The notes under the pieces: model-generated
Seen by the model: the letters and a program-made list of their open reading frames with translations, nothing else
Databases searched by the model: none
What the model was told of the DNA's origin: nothing
Shown: positions 2,882-56,070 of the stretch, in pieces
Numbering within the stretch: the stretch's first letter is position 1
How the letters are laid out: every line of letters begins with the position of its first letter
Assembly: GCF_002078355.1 (NCBI RefSeq)
Contig: NZ_CP015363.1
Coordinates: 1,302,001-1,366,000, forward strand
Length of the DNA stretch: 64,000 nucleotides
Source: Ferroplasma acidiphilum
Lineage (GTDB): Archaea; Thermoplasmatota; Thermoplasmata; Thermoplasmatales; Thermoplasmataceae
Direction of reading: 5' to 3'
Program-made: the position numbers and the translations under genes

Positions 2882-3118
2882 TTAGGGTTTATTCCTATTA
2901 CGCATATTTTTCTTTATACGGTATTCCGCAAAGAAAAACGCGCATATTCCCAATACCGTTGCATTTATACCGGTAATTATCATGTATTTAAATGGTAATT
3001 TGCCAGTATATATCATAAAAATTGTCAAGAAATTCGCAAATGCATCGGTAAGTAGAATATAGCCAATAATTCTAAGTTTTAATGGAAAATTTTTAAAAGT
3101 TTCTATATGTATATTCAT
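2882..3118 (-). CDS. Small membrane protein, putative immunity partner of 3128-3859
   Basis: A 78-residue protein with two hydrophobic segments (about residues 17-40 and 45-65) and a strongly basic C-terminus (RIKKNMRNRNKP). It starts 9 nt after the stop of the upstream precursor-like gene, with a TGAGG Shine-Dalgarno-like motif overlapping that stop, so the two are co-transcribed. The protein at 10921-11136 is a homologue in the same position behind the paralogous precursor; they share the opening pattern MNxHxExFKNxPLxxRIIxYxLL, then diverge. Gene order, size and co-divergence suggest an immunity protein, which is an inference. Confidence 0.6.
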   Translation of the reverse strand: MNIHIETFKNFPLKLRIIGYILLTDAFANFLTIFMIYTGKLPFKYMIITGINATVLGICAFFFAEYRIKKNMRNRNKP

Positions 3119-3127
3119 ATTTTTGCC

Positions 3128-3859
3128 TCAGAAACCCCATGGAACCGGGTTACAACCAAATTCTGGAGAACCAAACCATGTTGTCCCAATATAACCTCCA
3201 TTACCGCACTCATATGCAAGAATGCCTATTGCTACACTCCCTACCCCCATAATTGCAGCTGCGACAGCTGGTATAGCAGCTAATGGAATACCCACTATTG
3301 TTCCTGTGGTAAAAAATGCAATTACGCCTGCCACGGTCGCTCCACTACCTAATGCTATGGATAGCAACTCGAGTTCAGAAGGCGAAAAACTTGCCGCCCA
3401 ACCAAAGAGTCCTGTACTGTACTTTGCGTCTCCCGGTGTATAAGTAGCAGCTATACTTGCCTGTGTATGGTTAGCCATATTGCTGGTATTTACTGCACCT
3501 GTCATATTGCTTTCATTAACATTGTGGGAATAAAATGAGAAATTTCCATCGTTAAATGCTATGATATTAACTCTTCCTGCCTGAATATTGTTCTGATAAA
3601 TAACCCATGATGATAATGAACCGTTTATGAAAGTTGAGATCATAAATCCGTCCTGCAATTTTACCATATTTATTGTTATATTGGGGTGATTTAAAAGAAA
3701 ATGTGGAGTAGCCTGATTATTCAATTGACATGCTGTAACCTGCTGTGGTATTGCTGTATTGATTTGTGCTGTATTCGTATTGTCTGCTACAGGAACAAAG
3801 ACCATCATTATAAATATCGCTGCCATTACTACACCTATTATAACCTTCTTTTTATTCAT
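3128..3859 (-). CDS. Secreted bacteriocin-like precursor protein (copy 1)
   Basis: A 243-residue protein. Residues 1-25 form a signal peptide or anchor (MNKKKVIIGV, then hydrophobic, then VADN). Residues 26-147 are a polar extracytoplasmic region with many N-x-S/T sites. Residues 149-243 are Gly/Ala-rich and hydrophobic, ending in CGNG, then GCNPVPWGF, with Cys218 and Cys236. The copy at 11147-11878 has the same length; by hand count the first 148 residues are about 84% identical and the last 95 about 48%, with both cysteines kept. Conserved pre-region plus variable hydrophobic C-terminus and a small membrane partner fits a bacteriocin-type (halocin-like in architecture) precursor. No homology to a named bacteriocin was verified; a surface protein is the alternative. 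Confidence 0.6.
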   Translation of the reverse strand: MNKKKVIIGVVMAAIFIMMVFVPVADNTNTAQINTAIPQQVTACQLNNQATPHFLLNHPNITINMVKLQDGFMISTFINGSLSSWVIYQNNIQAGRVNIIAFNDGNFSFYSHNVNESNMTGAVNTSNMANHTQASIAATYTPGDAKYSTGLFGWAASFSPSELELLSIALGSGATVAGVIAFFTTGTIVGIPLAAIPAVAAAIMGVGSVAIGILAYECGNGGYIGTTWFGSPEFGCNPVPWGF

Positions 3860-3876
3860 AGTAGTATTAACACATG

Positions 3877-3891
3877 AATATATATATATAT
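3877..3891 (-). promoter_or_regulatory. Shared TATA-like promoter of precursor copy 1
   Basis: An alternating AT run about 20-30 nt upstream of the ATG at 3859. The surrounding upstream block (roughly 3860-3925, including AGTAAATAATTTAT) is closely matched upstream of the paralogue at 11878, so both copies probably share regulation. Confidence 0.5.
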
Positions 3892-4121
3892 CGGTAATTA
3901 TATAAGTAAATAATTTATAGATAAAGCAATTCTATTGCAGTTAAAGAAACATACCATCTCAGATATACAGAATTATTAATAACTATAAACTTCCTGCTGA
4001 AATAATGATTGAGAATTAACATGCAGAGATTTTACTCATACACAGCTGATTCATATTTGTGTTGCCTGACTTTTCCATTTAACCTGGTACTTTGTAGCTA
4101 GCTGCCGCTAAAATAGTTCCA

Positions 4122-10920: not shown

Positions 10921-11136
10921 CTACTTTCTCATTATACGGTATAACACAGCCAGTGCCACGCTAATTGTCAATATCCACCGATTTATAGTAAGAATTGATA
11001 CATATTTGCCAGCGTCTCCCATATAAATCAAATAAAAATATACAAAGAGGGATATAAATCCATAAATAAGTAGAACATAATAAATAATTCTAATGCTTAA
11101 CGGTAAATTTTTAAATGGTTCTAAATGTCTATTCAT
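10921..11136 (-). CDS. Small membrane protein, putative immunity partner of 11147-11878
   Basis: A 71-residue protein with two to three hydrophobic segments and a basic C-terminus (YRIMRK). It starts 10 nt after the stop of the precursor-like gene, behind an AAGGTAA ribosome-binding-like motif. It is homologous to 2882-3118 over the first 20-25 residues and diverges afterwards, parallel to divergence of the two precursors. The ATG at 11136 is used; the longer upstream frame runs back into the precursor gene. Immunity function is inferred from position and size. Confidence 0.6.
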   Translation of the reverse strand: MNRHLEPFKNLPLSIRIIYYVLLIYGFISLFVYFYLIYMGDAGKYVSILTINRWILTISVALAVLYRIMRK

Positions 11137-11146
11137 ATTATTTACC

Positions 11147-11878
11147 TTAATAACCGTACGGGACGGGATTACAACCAACTTCTGGATGGGCAAAAATATT
11201 TGTCCCCATCCAAGCTCCATTACCGCATTTATGTGCAAGGTCGGATAATCCTATAGCTCCTAACCCCATAATTATTGATGCGACAGTAGGTATTGCGGCT
11301 ATTGCAGCACCTATCCCACTGAATCCAGTAATAAGTGCGATTATAGATGATACAGCATTTCCCGCATTTAATGCTGTCACTATTTCGCAAAGTTCGGAGT
11401 GTGAAAAGCTTATCGCCCAGCCATCCCATCCTACACTGAACTTCGCATCTCCTGGTGAATAGGTAGCAGCTATACTTGCCTCAGTATGATTGGTCATATT
11501 GCTGGTATTTACTGCACCCGTTGTATTGTTTTCATTAACATTGTGGGAATAAAATGAGAAATTTCCATCGTTAAATGCTATGATATTAACTCTTCCTGCC
11601 TGAATATTGTTCTGATAAATAACCCACGATGATAATGAACCGTTTATGAAAGTTGAGATCATAAACCCATCGCGTAATTTTACTGTGTTTATTGTTATAT
11701 TTGGATGATTTAAAAGCAAATATGGAGTAGCCTGATTATTCAATTGATATGCTTTACCCTGCTGTGGTATTGCTATACTGCTTTGAGCTGTATGCATATT
11801 ATCTGCCGCAGGAATAAATGCGAGCATTACAAATATTGCTGCCATTAATACACCTATTATTACCTTCTTTTTATTCAC
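11147..11878 (-). CDS. Secreted bacteriocin-like precursor protein (copy 2)
   Basis: A 243-residue paralogue of 3128-3859 with the same layout: signal peptide (1-25), conserved polar pre-region up to SPGDAKFS (141-148), then a hydrophobic Gly/Ala/Ile-rich C-terminal domain ending KCGNG, then GCNPVPYGY, with Cys218 and Cys236. It has an extra Cys164 in the variable domain and lacks Cys44 of copy 1. The domain diverged much more than the pre-region, as in polymorphic toxins or bacteriocins. The preceding promoter block is conserved with copy 1. Processing after the conserved region is plausible but the site is not identified. Confidence 0.6.
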   Translation of the reverse strand: MNKKKVIIGVLMAAIFVMLAFIPAADNMHTAQSSIAIPQQGKAYQLNNQATPYLLLNHPNITINTVKLRDGFMISTFINGSLSSWVIYQNNIQAGRVNIIAFNDGNFSFYSHNVNENNTTGAVNTSNMTNHTEASIAATYSPGDAKFSVGWDGWAISFSHSELCEIVTALNAGNAVSSIIALITGFSGIGAAIAAIPTVASIIMGLGAIGLSDLAHKCGNGAWMGTNIFAHPEVGCNPVPYGY

Positions 11879-11896
11879 AATGATATTAATACATGA

Positions 11897-11912
11897 ATAT
11901 ATATATATATTA
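11897..11912 (-). promoter_or_regulatory. Shared TATA-like promoter of precursor copy 2
   Basis: An alternating AT run about 20-33 nt before the ATG at 11878, in a block conserved with the region upstream of copy 1 (ATTAATACATGAATAT here, ATTAACACATGAATAT there). Confidence 0.5.
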
Positions 11913-30854: not shown

Positions 30855-33356
30855 ATGAAAGTCTTTTCATCTAAAAAAAGATTCATAGTAGGAGTAATTG
30901 TTGCAATAGTTATAATTTCAATGATTTCAGTCTCCATTGGGCCTTTACCGCCGACTAATAAACTGCTAAATCCTTCAAAAGGTATTTATTCTATTCCACC
31001 GGAGTATAAAACTGGCGCTAAATATATGAATATTACTTATAATGGTAAGACTGCAGAGGTCATAACTTTCCAGGAATCTGATGGATTTATAGGCATATAT
31101 AGCAACCATAACTGGTCGTTATATTATGAACAGGGCTATTTAGAGGCAAAATACAGGCTTGCACAGATGGTCTTCATCAAGAAGGAAGCACAGGGCACTT
31201 TATCCGAACTTGTAGGTAAAAGTGAATTGTCATCGGATATATTTTCAAGGGAATTAATGGACTGCCAGATAGCTAAATCTGAAGTAAACAACCTTTCAAA
31301 AACTTCCTACACCTATATGGCAACCAGCAATTTTGTCTCCGGTATAAACTCATACATAAACAATTTGAGCTATGGAAATACGCCACTGCTTTTTAAACTG
31401 CTCAATTATAAGCCCAAGGATTTTAACATAACAAATATCTTTGCAATCCAGCAAACTTTTCTGTGGGAAAACAGTGCAGGAGGCTTTGAGCCGCTTTACT
31501 TCCAGTATGCATTGCAGAAAATGCCTGAAAACATTATAAAAGCGCTGTATCCAGCTTACCAGGCAGGAATACAAAACCCCATTGTGCCTTATCAATGCAA
31601 TCCGGGAATTTACAACGAAACAGGCGATATTAACAATTTAACATTATACACGCCGTCTGTGCATATACCGGTAAACATAAGCAGCATACCTGCATTTTCA
31701 TCGCCAACATCACTTGCATTTCCATCCTCTGAAAGTTTCAGCAACGACTGGGCAGTCAACGGGGTAAAAACAGACAATGTTTCGGCTTTGCTTGCAAATG
31801 ACCCACATCTCACGACAAGCGTGCCTTCAATATGGATAGGTTTCCAGCTTGTATCTCCAGGCATGAACGTGATCGGAGTGGTGTTCCCTGGTTTCCCCGG
31901 CATAATACTCGGACATAATAGTTACATAGCATGGGGTGCAACTAACGGGCAGACACAGGAAACTTACTTCTATGCTGAAGAAACATCCAGTTCACATCCA
32001 TACAGTTACTATTCCAACGGAAACTGGACAAAATTCACAGTGATAAACGAAACAATAAATGTAAAGGATTCAAAGCCATATAATCTGCAGCTGGAAGTTG
32101 CAGACAATGGGGTTGTGGTTGACAATGATTCGGGAACAAAAATTGCCATGGACTGGACGGGTCTATCCCCGAGTTATGAGCTTACATTTTTCCTGCATAT
32201 AGACAGAGCACATACAGTATCAGAGTTCAGGGACAACCTTACACAATATTTCAAGGTTGCAATACAGAACTGGGCAGTTGCAGGTTCAAAGGGCAATATC
32301 GGCATATTCCCGTATGGAGATTATCCTGTCATAGAATCAGGCAATCCCAGAGGTGTATTAAATGGAACTGGTAGGTCAAACTGGGTGGGTTTCATACCAC
32401 TGAAATATGAGCCGTCCTTATACGACCCTGCAAGGGGATTTGTATTCTCTGCTAACCAGATAACTGTTTCACCAGGTTATCCATATTATACTGGCTGGCT
32501 TTATGAAACAGGGCCACGTGCAAATGAGATATATTCATTGTTAAATTCAACTTCCGGGTTCAATACGTCAAAAATGGAAAAAGTACAGTTGTCGGTACAT
32601 GATTACTCAACCAATATTTTCCTGAAGCCCCTGTTGAAATCCATTGAAAAATACTATGGAAATACAGAAATATATAATGAATTGGAATCATGGAACGGGA
32701 ATATGGATATTAATTCTTCAGCAGCAAGTGTTTTCCATTTCTGGGAACATAATATAGTAAACGATACTTTCCTGCCATACATGGAAGAATACGGAATAAC
32801 TCCTCAGGATGGATTATATAACATATCATTCTTCCTGGGTAGCGATGTAACATACCATGGCCCACTGATGGAAGACCTGGTAAACTGGACAATTAATTAT
32901 CCTGATTCAACATATTTCAATAACCCTTTGAATGGCAATGTTGAGAATTTTTCATCACTGGCACTTCATGCATTTAACCAGACAATAAATGAGCTTAATA
33001 AAAAATATGGCACAATATCATCGAAATGGGACTGGGGCAATATTCATAAGAGGTACTTATCCAGCTTCTTTAGCATAAATACATTGAATACAAAGGAAAT
33101 CCCGGCGGCTGGAAATGGAAATACGATAAACGCAGCATACGGGCTTACATCCAATTTTGGCCCCTCATGGAGGCTTATAGTTAACCTGTCAAATCCTGCA
33201 AAGTCCGTAGGCATATATCCCGGTGGCATCTCTGAAAACCCATTGAGCAGTTATTATTCAAACAACTTCATACCATGGAACAACGGTGTATATTACACAT
33301 TAATTCCAGTAAATATGCCGGAACAATTTTATCAGGGGTATGGTGATCAAAAATGA
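30855..33356 (+). CDS. Penicillin-acylase-family Ntn hydrolase, exported
   Basis: An 833-residue protein. Residues 9-28 form an N-terminal signal or anchor; the alpha chain covers up to about 295; autoproteolysis is predicted before Ser296 in SFSNDWAVNG, the new N-terminal nucleophile of the beta chain, followed by LLANDPHLTTSVPSIW and FPGFPGIILGHNSYIAWGATN. The family hydrolyses amide bonds (penicillins, acyl-homoserine lactones, lipopeptides); the natural substrate here is unknown. Many N-x-S/T sites fit a surface enzyme. It overlaps the next gene by 4 nt (ATGA). Confidence 0.9.
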   Translation: MKVFSSKKRFIVGVIVAIVIISMISVSIGPLPPTNKLLNPSKGIYSIPPEYKTGAKYMNITYNGKTAEVITFQESDGFIGIYSNHNWSLYYEQGYLEAKYRLAQMVFIKKEAQGTLSELVGKSELSSDIFSRELMDCQIAKSEVNNLSKTSYTYMATSNFVSGINSYINNLSYGNTPLLFKLLNYKPKDFNITNIFAIQQTFLWENSAGGFEPLYFQYALQKMPENIIKALYPAYQAGIQNPIVPYQCNPGIYNETGDINNLTLYTPSVHIPVNISSIPAFSSPTSLAFPSSESFSNDWAVNGVKTDNVSALLANDPHLTTSVPSIWIGFQLVSPGMNVIGVVFPGFPGIILGHNSYIAWGATNGQTQETYFYAEETSSSHPYSYYSNGNWTKFTVINETINVKDSKPYNLQLEVADNGVVVDNDSGTKIAMDWTGLSPSYELTFFLHIDRAHTVSEFRDNLTQYFKVAIQNWAVAGSKGNIGIFPYGDYPVIESGNPRGVLNGTGRSNWVGFIPLKYEPSLYDPARGFVFSANQITVSPGYPYYTGWLYETGPRANEIYSLLNSTSGFNTSKMEKVQLSVHDYSTNIFLKPLLKSIEKYYGNTEIYNELESWNGNMDINSSAASVFHFWEHNIVNDTFLPYMEEYGITPQDGLYNISFFLGSDVTYHGPLMEDLVNWTINYPDSTYFNNPLNGNVENFSSLALHAFNQTINELNKKYGTISSKWDWGNIHKRYLSSFFSINTLNTKEIPAAGNGNTINAAYGLTSNFGPSWRLIVNLSNPAKSVGIYPGGISENPLSSYYSNNFIPWNNGVYYTLIPVNMPEQFYQGYGDQK

Positions 33357-33691
33357 ATGATAAATATTTTAATATATATGGAATATTCATATTAATTATA
33401 ACTGCCTTTTTGCTTGGATATTACGGTTACTGGTATTTGCAAATTGTACCTGCAATTTTAATAGGCTATTTCATGGTTAGAAAAATTTCATATATAGTTT
33501 TAGCGGGTGTAGCCTCAATGCTGGGAATTTTTATAGCTTTAATACCATCCTATGCCACAAGGATCAGGGGTGCGTCATTAGCATCCAGCATAGCGGGAAT
33601 TCCATTTTACCTGGTAATACTATTAACCTTCCTGATTATATTCGTTATAACAATAGCGGGATTGCTAATAGGCTCTTCAATTAATAAATAA
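33353..33691 (+). CDS. Small membrane protein coupled to the acylase gene
   Basis: A 112-residue protein with about four hydrophobic segments and almost no soluble part. It overlaps the acylase stop codon by ATGA, so it is translationally coupled. It may act as membrane partner or anchor for the acylase, but no family is recognised. Confidence 0.65.
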   Translation: MNDKYFNIYGIFILIITAFLLGYYGYWYLQIVPAILIGYFMVRKISYIVLAGVASMLGIFIALIPSYATRIRGASLASSIAGIPFYLVILLTFLIIFVITIAGLLIGSSINK

Positions 33692-50321: not shown

Positions 50322-51083
50322 TCACTTAGAGATTTTACTTTCATCTGCAATATTTAAATGTGTTTTCTTCTCCAGGCTAATCTTCTTTCCATGGTAAATT
50401 GCATTGTATATTTTCCTGTTATTGCGATGATGTTGTATAACAATCCCATAAGCTTTGTTTACCACTGAAATTGCCGGAATATTTGTTCCTATTGTTTGTG
50501 CTGCGAATGTATCTGCAGATATTTCGCTATATATTAAATGGAGCTTGAGGATAAGTATGACTATAACTATACTGGATAATGCCACAATAGCAGAAATTAT
50601 AAAGAGAAAATGAAATCCTGAAAGCCAGAATTGTATCAATACTATTAGAGATACCGCTACAATAAGTAAAATTGTGAGAGCTAGAATGTAGGTTTTGGAT
50701 GCATCTTTTCTAATGAAATGATATGGCTCGTGAAAAACTAAAGCTTCTCTTTCATTATCGTCCAGAGCATCGAAAAAATTTTCATTTATAAATATCTTTG
50801 CTTGTTTTCCTAGAGGGGTAAATGATGGAGATCTGTACATTTTATTAAGTGCAGGGAATTTAAATATTTCCAGATCAATATGAGTTATATGCTTAGTTAG
50901 TGCAGTGTATTTTTTAGATAAATCGTAATCTATTATTGCATTGAAACGCTGAGTTATATCTGTTTTTCTTCCATGTTTTGAACGTTGAAGTTGTATCATT
51001 ATTAATAAAATTGCAGCAAACGAGGTAAGACTGGCTAAAATATTATAGGATGCTGAATTCCCTAAATGAAAATGAAAACTCAA
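50322..51083 (-). CDS. M48-type membrane metallopeptidase, second copy, probably frameshifted at its start
   Basis: 253 residues from a TTG at 51083. HEPYH (118-122) is the HExxH zinc site, followed by two membrane segments and an EISADTFAA motif with the third-ligand Glu. It is related in layout to 54654-55514. No ATG is in frame, but ATG codons at 51157 and 51151 come into frame if the run of eight A at 51130-51137 (T on the coding strand) gained one base, adding MSNPNFFLISIVILAG. So the gene is either a recent pseudogene, phase-variable, or affected by a sequencing error. It is followed by a transposase scar where the SpoIIM-like gene would be. Confidence 0.65.
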   Translation of the reverse strand: MSFHFHLGNSASYNILASLTSFAAILLIMIQLQRSKHGRKTDITQRFNAIIDYDLSKKYTALTKHITHIDLEIFKFPALNKMYRSPSFTPLGKQAKIFINENFFDALDDNEREALVFHEPYHFIRKDASKTYILALTILLIVAVSLIVLIQFWLSGFHFLFIISAIVALSSIVIVILILKLHLIYSEISADTFAAQTIGTNIPAISVVNKAYGIVIQHHRNNRKIYNAIYHGKKISLEKKTHLNIADESKISK

Positions 51084-53641: not shown

Positions 53642-54676
53642 TTAAAAATTATATATGCCTAATCCAGCTTCTATTAAGGCACCTATGACAAGCAAAGATA
53701 TTGAAAGTATTAGGTAAAATCCAGAACTATATAACAGATCGTGTGTTCTTTGAGTGAAATATTGTGATTTCTCATTTCTTATCATGGATTGGGTAAATGA
53801 TAATATTATATCTGTCATAACTAAAGCAATTGATAGGCCAAAAACATAGCCGAGAGTTTCCGGGAAAAACTGTGGCAATATATATTTTACAAACGATGAA
53901 GAGCCATGTGTAATATCAAGTGAAGACATTATTATTGCTTCATATATATTGGATGAAAATAGTTCTATAAATGTGCCTGTGAATAAACTAAATCCACCAA
54001 TCATATATTCAAATACATCCAGAGTTATATTGTTTTTAAGTATGGTGCTGAAGAAATGCCAGTAATTGTAAGAACCACTTTTTACAGTTCCGGAAGATGC
54101 TAAAGGGGCCGCAGGTTGTACAAACGTATATATAATTATCAAAATAAAAAATATGGAGTAATACATTATCATTGAAGAATAAAAATATTGAAGAAATAAT
54201 GATTTCTTATTTTCATTTTTATTTTTTATCGACATTAGATTAAATTTATTATCATATTCGTTTTGCAAAAATTTCTTATTTTTTAAAATAAATAGCGAGT
54301 TAATTATGTTGGATATAAAAAATGATTTTATTATATCTCTTACAAGCAATAGTTTTAATAATTTATTTTTGCTTATTTCATATTTGTTAATTATCTCTAA
54401 TTTAAATATATCCTCAGCTATACCATGACCTGTTAATGATTCAATTGAGTAATAGCAGAAAGAAATTAAAAACAATATAAGTAAGTTATATAATCCGTAA
54501 TTTGTGTCGAATATATGTAAAAACCCCGGAATGAAATCTATTTTATATGCCAGGAAAAAACCTAGAAATGCATCCTTTATATGAAATATAGAGGCAATTA
54601 ATGATGTTAATGAAATTAAAATCGTTTGTTCTGTAACGTATATTATAAATTTTTCACTTAAACTTATTAGTTTCAT
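53642..54676 (-). CDS. RDD-like plus SpoIIM (DUF95)-like membrane protein of the peptide locus
   Basis: A 344-residue membrane protein from ATG 54676 (TTG 54688 possible). The N-terminal third looks like an RDD domain (YYSIESLTGHGIAEDIFKLE, then a KLLLVRDIIKSF helix). The C-terminal half resembles SpoIIM/DUF95: FIELFSSNIYEAIIMSS, YILPQFFPETLGYVFGLSIA and the final LLVIGALIEAGLGIY. DUF95 proteins are constant members of circular bacteriocin clusters. It overlaps the peptidase gene by 23 nt, so it belongs to the same operon. Role in secretion, maturation or immunity is inferred. Confidence 0.65.
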   Translation of the reverse strand: MKLISLSEKFIIYVTEQTILISLTSLIASIFHIKDAFLGFFLAYKIDFIPGFLHIFDTNYGLYNLLILFLISFCYYSIESLTGHGIAEDIFKLEIINKYEISKNKLLKLLLVRDIIKSFFISNIINSLFILKNKKFLQNEYDNKFNLMSIKNKNENKKSLFLQYFYSSMIMYYSIFFILIIIYTFVQPAAPLASSGTVKSGSYNYWHFFSTILKNNITLDVFEYMIGGFSLFTGTFIELFSSNIYEAIIMSSLDITHGSSSFVKYILPQFFPETLGYVFGLSIALVMTDIILSFTQSMIRNEKSQYFTQRTHDLLYSSGFYLILSISLLVIGALIEAGLGIYNF

Positions 54677-55514
54677 TGTATTCCTCAATTTTCTTTAATC
54701 TTTTATTAATCTGTTTTTTTATTCTAAATATCATATACCTATGACCAATGATATTTTTACTAAGATAATACGAAGTTTTCTGCAAAGCTGTAGATATATA
54801 ATCTTTTTTTAATTCTTTTATAGAAAATATGTCACAACTCAGTTCTTCTCTGTTAAAGATTATTGTGAAGATGGAGTATAGAATTATTATCACTGTGAGA
54901 AACCCAATAATTAGATTTATTAATAAGGACAATTGTACTCCATACATAAATATTGTCAACAGCAAAAATATTATGGCTCCACCAGCAAGCAGTATGGCAA
55001 AAGCAAGCACTTTTCGAATTAACCCACTGTTAGTTATAAAATGACCTATTTCATGAAGTACTACCGCGTCCATTTCATCAGGGGTAATATAGTCTAAAAA
55101 ATCGCGTTGTATCAAAATTTTTAATGCTTTAGAATAAAAGATACCTGCTGGAGATAAATGAAACAAATCGTTTAAATCATATATGTATATATTTATTTCT
55201 TTAATATTGCTCTCCCTATATTTTATACCTGCATATTTTTTTGTATAAATTTCCGACAAATCATAATCCTTAACTGCGTTACGTGGCTCGTCAAGATATC
55301 CTGTTTTTTTAAAGTATAAATACAGTAAAATTCCTAATTCAGCTGGGTAAATAAAAATGTTAAAAATATTTAAAATTATATTTTCTATTTTAGTTGGGTG
55401 TAAGAGAATAAAATTGTCGAAAATTGTAAAAATAGAAACGGTGATTAAACCGATAATTAAATATGGTAAAAGGAATAACTTATAAATTTTCTTTTTATTA
55501 TTTTCGATTTTCAT
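54654..55514 (-). CDS. M48-type membrane metallopeptidase of the peptide locus
   Basis: A 286-residue protein. Two N-terminal transmembrane segments (11-32, about 44-68), zinc motif HEIGH at 154-158 in VVLHEIGHFITNSGL, two more hydrophobic helices, then FNREELSCDIFSIKEL with the third-ligand Glu. The layout is that of HtpX/M48 or M56-like membrane peptidases. It lies 22 nt after the precursor gene and overlaps the SpoIIM-like gene, so it is a good candidate for processing the precursor. A second copy is at 50322-51083. Confidence 0.78.
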   Translation of the reverse strand: MKIENNKKKIYKLFLLPYLIIGLITVSIFTIFDNFILLHPTKIENIILNIFNIFIYPAELGILLYLYFKKTGYLDEPRNAVKDYDLSEIYTKKYAGIKYRESNIKEINIYIYDLNDLFHLSPAGIFYSKALKILIQRDFLDYITPDEMDAVVLHEIGHFITNSGLIRKVLAFAILLAGGAIIFLLLTIFMYGVQLSLLINLIIGFLTVIIILYSIFTIIFNREELSCDIFSIKELKKDYISTALQKTSYYLSKNIIGHRYMIFRIKKQINKRLKKIEEYNETNKFK

Positions 55515-55536
55515 TCATTCTTCCTCAAGTATATAA

Positions 55537-56070
55537 TTAATACGCAACTATGGCGATTGCCAATGATCCTAATAGTGCTTGCCCTACTGGATTAGATAGA
55601 TCAAGTGCCAAGATCCCTATTATTGCAACGTTACTCCATGAACTCCAAAGTATAGCGAACCCAATTGTCGCCAAAGTACCACTTCCTACGACAATACCGA
55701 CACCGATAAATAAACCGATAAGGAAGTTCACTATGTCGGTTTCGGTCGGCCTAGCACCCCAATGCGTAAGCTCGTAATCCACAAGCTCCGCTATATGTCC
55801 ACTAGTTATAACATCAGTAGATGAGGATTGAATTGTTTTACCTAAATTCCCAAATTCATACGGTATTGCATTATTTTCCATTGATATTAATCCACTATAC
55901 ACCGGTACTCCTACAGATGTTAGTAAAACTGCTATTGCAAATATAGATATCAAAGATTTTTTCCAGTTATTTTTATGTTCTTTGTGATAATCCATTCCCG
56001 TACTATTGTTACGGTACATTTCAATGGCTTTCAACTCTTTATATTTTGGATTCAAAATATTTGATTCCAT
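55537..56070 (-). CDS. Putative precursor of a hydrophobic (circular-bacteriocin-like) peptide
   Basis: 177 residues. 1-37 polar and basic (KYKELKAIEMYRNNSTG), 38-60 one transmembrane segment (signal anchor), 61-110 polar, 113-177 almost wholly hydrophobic and Gly/Ala/Ile-rich with no charge except Asp157, ending SLAIAIVAY. Circular bacteriocins are 60-70 residue hydrophobic helical peptides whose precursors end in an aromatic residue (for example AIAY or VIAW), so the C-terminal domain fits that class in size and end. The leader is much longer than usual. It is the first gene of an operon with a peptidase and a SpoIIM-like protein. Function inferred. Confidence 0.6.
   Translation of the reverse strand: MESNILNPKYKELKAIEMYRNNSTGMDYHKEHKNNWKKSLISIFAIAVLLTSVGVPVYSGLISMENNAIPYEFGNLGKTIQSSSTDVITSGHIAELVDYELTHWGARPTETDIVNFLIGLFIGVGIVVGSGTLATIGFAILWSSWSNVAIIGILALDLSNPVGQALLGSLAIAIVAY

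Follow-up and report, generated by a model that had tools for sequence, protein, structure and literature searches.

To our knowledge, few archaeal antagonistic proteins have been characterized. Among those with which the locus analyzed here can be compared, halocin C8 (a haloarchaeal archaeocin, ProC8) resembles it as a long secreted archaeal precursor in which the active peptide would correspond to the C-terminal part; its immunity function, according to PMC8628083 citing Sun et al. 2005, resides inside the same precursor, whereas the Ferroplasma locus carries a separate downstream partner gene, although its N-terminal region may have a protective role as well. Halocin C8, put forward as a precedent in the initial annotation, can be retained as an example of a long archaeal precursor only; its domain model does not match. 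The family TIGR04449, which has a cysteine-rich C-terminal domain, gave no match at E 10 in a search of the genome and none by hmmscan of the precursors. The fusellovirus proteins SSV9 B310 and SSV1 a291 are likewise secreted archaeal toxins, of about 300 amino acids, in which the signal peptide is conserved and the body divergent, and the genes downstream of them, SSV9 C108 and SSV1 c124, have been proposed to encode antitoxins, three-span in SSV9 (PMC8628083, PMC13431529). These toxins are viral, and the glucanase-like fold reported for them (PMC13431529) would differ from that of the C-terminal domain (CTD) of the Ferroplasma precursor, which is modelled as a hydrophobic helical hairpin.

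The class III bacteriocins geobacillin 26 and alicyclobacillin 24 share with the Ferroplasma protein a Sec-exported precursor of approximately 240 amino acids and a hydrophobic C-terminal helix, and membrane-associated action in an acidophile has been described for them (PMC13176240). One C-terminal helix is, however, reported for them instead of a hairpin, and the word immunity is absent from PMC13176240. The geobacillin-26 family (NF035925) had no match over its cut-off in 77 related genomes; a single weak match, at E 0.099, was found in one alignment member, and follow-up searches gave nothing. Sulfolobicins (SulA/SulB) are antimicrobials that archaea secrete, that associate with membranes and that act against close relatives (PMC5733018), but they are reported to be a two-protein toxin. 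Polymorphic toxin systems place a common trafficking module on different bodies with matching partners; in Ferroplasma, by contrast, the shared module comprises only a signal peptide and a promoter, and the proteins are small. Activation by proteolysis has a precedent in secreted haloarchaeal precursors (PMC12893001).

The Ferroplasma precursor and its partner

The window, that is the whole stretch of 64,000 nucleotides that was analyzed, is part of a complete 1,826,943-bp genome and contains two copies of the precursor-partner pair, whose features are as follows:

3128–3859, minus strand: precursor, copy 1 (243 aa, ATG start), called from the open reading frame and homologues in several genera
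2882–3118, minus strand: partner, copy 1, a 78-aa two-span basic membrane protein and candidate immunity protein
3865–3886, minus strand: promoter core, copy 1, TATATATATTCATGTGTTAATA, common to other precursor genes
3779–3859, minus strand: signal-peptide region of copy 1 (about residues 1–27), common to otherwise unrelated precursors
3422–3778, minus strand: N-terminal (putative pro-)region of copy 1 (residues 28–146), alike in the two copies and divergent between genera, with a low-confidence beta-rich model
3131–3421, minus strand: CTD of copy 1 (residues 147–243), delimited by alignments and AlphaFold (pLDDT 78)
11147–11878, minus strand: precursor, copy 2, a paralogue (243 aa, GTG start)
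10921–11136, minus strand: partner, copy 2, a 71-aa two-span basic membrane protein
11884–11905, minus strand: promoter core, copy 2, TATATATATTCATGTATTAATA

Open reading frames and hydrophobic segments confirmed the description given in the initial annotation, namely a secreted precursor of 243 residues followed 9 nt later by a two-span basic partner of 78 residues; in copy 2 the gap is 10 nt. The copy 1 precursor has hydrophobic segments at residues 6–24 (N-terminal), 165–183 and 188–206, and those of its partner lie at residues 17–35 and 46–64, the partner having 11 K/R against 3 D/E. Along the CTD, a YSxGxxGWAxSF motif is followed by the hydrophobic helical hairpin, a G-rich beta hairpin and a terminal NPVPWGF, with cysteines at C218 and C236. 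The count of two cysteines made at the outset requires correction, as the copy 1 precursor contains three (C44, C218 and C236), of which only C218 and C236 are kept in close homologues, both being missing from distant ones. A third, more divergent copy of the CTD is found in the same genome (L154, C1:1532706), with a 75-aa partner and without the shared promoter core.

Modelled alone from five input sequences, the CTD was predicted by AlphaFold to form a hydrophobic helical hairpin that beta hairpins close off, in the order two strands, helix 17–41, helix 47–74 and two strands. The model of the full-length precursor was poor (pLDDT 42), with a beta-rich N-terminal half at low confidence. With regard to a glucanase- or hydrolase-like beta fold, the CTD is modelled as a helical hairpin with beta hairpins, and the N-terminal half has a low-confidence model. 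Foldseek searches of the CTD model against the PDB and viral models gave no match at E 0.001, and the best VIA-align Z, 9.3, lies inside the range that is uninformative for helical models and bundles.

Comparison of copies 1 and 2 gave identities of 122/146 (84%) over residues 1–146 and 47/97 (48%) over residues 147–243, matching the values first estimated, with dN of 0.079 and 0.485 and dS of 0.30 and 0.63, respectively. At the nucleotide level, identity reaches 97–100% in a run at codons ~71–105 and is about 50% near codons 160–175. This profile indicates that the N-terminal half has undergone gene conversion and that the CTD changes fast, and N-terminal gene conversion also fits the higher synonymous change found there between copy 2 and its fer1 orthologue (pS 0.183, against 0.072 in the CTD); gene conversion would account for part of the 84% identity. 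The picture of a conserved export region attached to a variable active domain applies between the two Ferroplasma copies, whereas across genera it is the CTD that is the conserved, recognizable part and the N-terminal half can be recognized far less well, if it can be recognized at all. The partners, which had been said to keep only their N-terminus, are 43% identical, an identity that is indeed concentrated N-terminally yet extends past the N-terminal part.

A CTD family and the genes downstream of it

A family profile built on the CTD (residues 147–243, ~97 residues) retrieved relatives from several genera of the same family and from one genome (G263) of another family, amounting to 29 loci in Thermoplasmata; a close relative of the locus is present in Ferroplasma acidarmanus fer1. 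The aligned CTDs have in common the YSxGxxGWAxSF motif, a two-helix hydrophobic stretch and a G-rich turn (GxYxG), and most members end in a proline-aromatic stretch (NPVPWGY, VPWWA). The distribution is patchy within a genus, with several divergent copies per genome. Two further loci, L125 and L126, gave weak CTD matches that appear to have arisen by chance from unrelated hydrophobic segments.

No Pfam or NCBIfam model reached its cut-off against the precursors, the partners or the CTD alignment, which agrees with the earlier assignment of the precursors to no named group; solved structures in the PDB gave no significant match to the CTD by sequence, nor was a match to a known structural surface protein found. 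Judged from these searches, the CTD defines a family absent from Pfam, NCBIfam and PDB. No relatives were found in viral contigs, phages or plasmids; bacteria may carry the same domain, a possibility that the analysis addressed through plasmids and phages. A description of the CTD was not found in the open literature searched, although a 2019 survey of archaeal toxins (mBio e00715-19) may list some such genes, and no report on antagonistic proteins of acid-mine Thermoplasmatales was found within the searchable literature.

A small membrane protein lies directly downstream of the precursor in 29/29 Thermoplasmata CTD loci, comprising 27 loci scored for gap and spans together with L100 and L132. 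Precursor and partner travel as a unit across genera, which supports the initial interpretation. The gap was between −17 and +16 nt in 26 of the scored loci and 194 nt in the remaining one, and the partners were predicted to have two or more spans in 25 cases and one span in 2. As background, 464 kb of this genome contain 328 genes that encode 150 aa or more, and only 4 of them (~1%) have a small protein with at least two spans less than or equal to 20 nt downstream; the pair under study is one of these four. Orphan copies of partner 1 were not found in the genus, where only copies 1 and 2 score significantly. Homologues that never have the small partner are rare: all 29 Thermoplasmata loci possess one, but the CTD-like domains of three proteins from a different class (L151, L152 and L160), of which L151 gave a PKD domain in the domain search, are without a small downstream membrane partner and possibly represent a different use of the same CTD-like domain. 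At L007 the precursor is intact, but the partner frame has no ATG, GTG or TTG near its expected start; this frame (2245–2479), preceded by a GAGGTGA motif, either has a rare start codon or is a decayed partner. Two related partner-like genes stand in tandem after one precursor at L162 (2483–2985) and L164 (2120–2594, both in coding-strand coordinates).

Co-variation of CTD and partner, which had been suggested as a check, gave suggestive results: in Mantel tests, the similarity of partners tracked that of the CTDs (r 0.16, p 0.011) but not that of the N-terminal parts (r 0.04, p 0.28), and removal of near-duplicates left r 0.115 at p 0.051 for the CTD. Between two Ferroplasma genomes, the partners differ by 0 synonymous and 11 nonsynonymous changes and the adjacent CTDs by 9 and 7 (Fisher p 0.003); the partner changes set against neutrality alone gave p 0.08. 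The Mantel results and substitution counts are only suggestive, and constraint on the copy 1 partner may be relaxed in fer1.

Three loci hold a decayed precursor beside an intact partner. In F. acidarmanus fer1, the equivalent of ~3494–3912 of the window is missing from copy 1 (L018), and with it the start, the signal peptide, the promoter core and some 120 residues, while the partner frame is intact; L100 has an in-frame TAA at the border between the precursor halves; and L132 consists of a 109-residue precursor remnant followed by an intact 69-aa partner. Given that the partner has only about a third of the precursor's length, chance alone would place all three breaks in the precursor in ~45% of cases.

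A signal peptide and promoter common to nine genes

Nine genes of the genome, namely copies 1 and 2, L003, L004, L005, L006, L104, L105 and L106, have in common the signal peptide MNKKKVIIGVLMAAIFVMxAFVPxADN together with ~60 nt of DNA upstream of it. In this upstream DNA a TATA-like core lies near the start codon, an arrangement known from leaderless genes, and the 22-nt core, searched with at most one mismatch, is matched in the genome only at eight of the nine. These nine genes represent seven types, mostly unrelated past the signal peptide (a distant relationship links classes B and C), and each body type has a membrane protein downstream of it, of its own partner type. Partner similarity tracks body class, with z of 38.9 for L003/L004, 23.0 for L011/L014 and 14.5 for L006/L015, against cross-class scores mostly below 5; the partner of L009, as called here, is an exception without a match to its class. 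The earlier suggestion of active domains matched to their partners is supported by these unrelated secreted bodies. A polymorphic-toxin layout, with a conserved N-terminal trafficking part, exchangeable C-terminal parts and matching immunity genes, would fit the shared signal peptide and promoter and the class-matched partners, but within the CTD family it is the CTD that is conserved across genera.

We consider it an evenly balanced possibility that Ferroplasma encodes a co-regulated secreted arsenal, in which one promoter and signal-peptide cassette would have been placed before some seven toxin bodies, for the most part unrelated and each accompanied by its own immunity protein in the membrane, and of which the hairpin family would be one Thermoplasmata-wide branch. 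The shared promoter may reveal a common regulator. Among the secreted products of L003, L004, L005, L006, L104, L105 and L106, two classes end in a ...PPW motif; a 255-aa protein located downstream of the decayed CTD locus L132 (2381–3148, G024) ends in EPPW, like class C precursors.

Candidate functions of the pair

The genomic evidence shows that the two genes are paired and conserved as a pair, that the CTD forms a family, that promoter and signal peptide are shared between genes and that partners match body class; from it we infer export, cleavage, membrane damage and immunity. The pair is probably a bacteriocin-type (archaeocin) membrane-inserting toxin with its immunity protein, a reading that best explains a secreted protein with a hydrophobic hairpin, the fixed adjacency of a small membrane protein, the matching of partners to body class and the shared expression and export cassette. 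The precursor would be exported by means of its N-terminal signal peptide, its middle region serving as a pro-domain or carrier, and the C-terminal ~97 residues would perhaps be freed by cleavage near residue 146. The helical hairpin would then insert into and permeabilize the membrane of related Thermoplasmatales cells, and the partner, in the producer's own membrane, would block this insertion; the matching of partners at class level bears indirectly on whether each would protect against its own toxin only. Thermoplasmatales have no cell wall, which makes a membrane target plausible, and wall-less cells would be a good match for a toxin that inserts into membranes and an immunity protein that resides in them.

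A toxin with its immunity protein is further favored by partner similarity that follows the CTD and not the N-terminal half, by the contrasting substitution counts of partners and CTDs between the Ferroplasma genomes, by the three decayed precursors that keep an intact partner, by the patchy, multi-copy distribution and by the archaeal secreted-toxin precedents SSV9 B310/C108 and SSV1 a291/c124. Against it stand the finding that no known toxin or immunity model matches precursor or partner, the weakening of the Mantel correlation once near-duplicates are removed, the neutrality comparison of the partner changes and the possibly relaxed constraint on the copy 1 partner in fer1, the chance expectation for broken precursors, the additional loss of the promoter in fer1 copy 1, the partnerless CTD-like domains of the other class and the L007 partner frame.

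The C-terminal hydrophobic hairpin and the adjoining small membrane protein would also suit a surface or membrane structural protein, anchored through the hairpin and assembled or anchored with the help of the partner, whose beta-rich N-terminal half, modelled at low confidence, could be exposed. This is nevertheless unlikely in view of the patchy occurrence within a genus and the several divergent copies per genome, of partners that change faster than CTDs between close genomes, of unrelated bodies that have unrelated partners under the same promoter, and of decayed bodies that persist beside intact partners. Peptide signalling, with the CTD or a fragment of it as a secreted pheromone and the partner as receptor or processing factor, could draw on the secreted precursor with its conserved C-terminal end (NPVPWGY) and on the coordinate regulation suggested by the shared promoter; pheromones, however, are not usually hydrophobic hairpins of ~97 residues, sensory and protease domains are absent from the two-span partner and no regulator was seen adjoining the pair, which makes signalling quite improbable. 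Very improbable is a self-targeting toxin-antitoxin or abortive-infection module acting from within on the producer's own membrane: the CTD is predicted to be membrane-active, adjoins a membrane protein and could be toxic from inside were export to fail, but the clear signal peptide is common to many secreted proteins and no viral homologues were found.

Taken as toxins with cognate immunity proteins, the family members form a directly testable candidate set, with culturable producers and two close strains differing in one copy.

Several other genes of the window were noted. A 177-aa secreted hydrophobic protein (55537–56070, minus strand) heads a cluster at 53642–56070, in which it is followed by an M48-type metalloprotease (54654–55514, minus strand) and a SpoIIM-like membrane protein (53642–54688, minus strand); the arrangement resembles a further bacteriocin-type cluster, of another kind. 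Another M48-like metalloprotease, also membrane-bound, is encoded nearby (50322–51083, minus strand). Elsewhere, at 30855–33691 on the plus strand, a penicillin amidase family protein (833 aa) is followed, with a 4-nt overlap, by a two-span protein of 112 aa.
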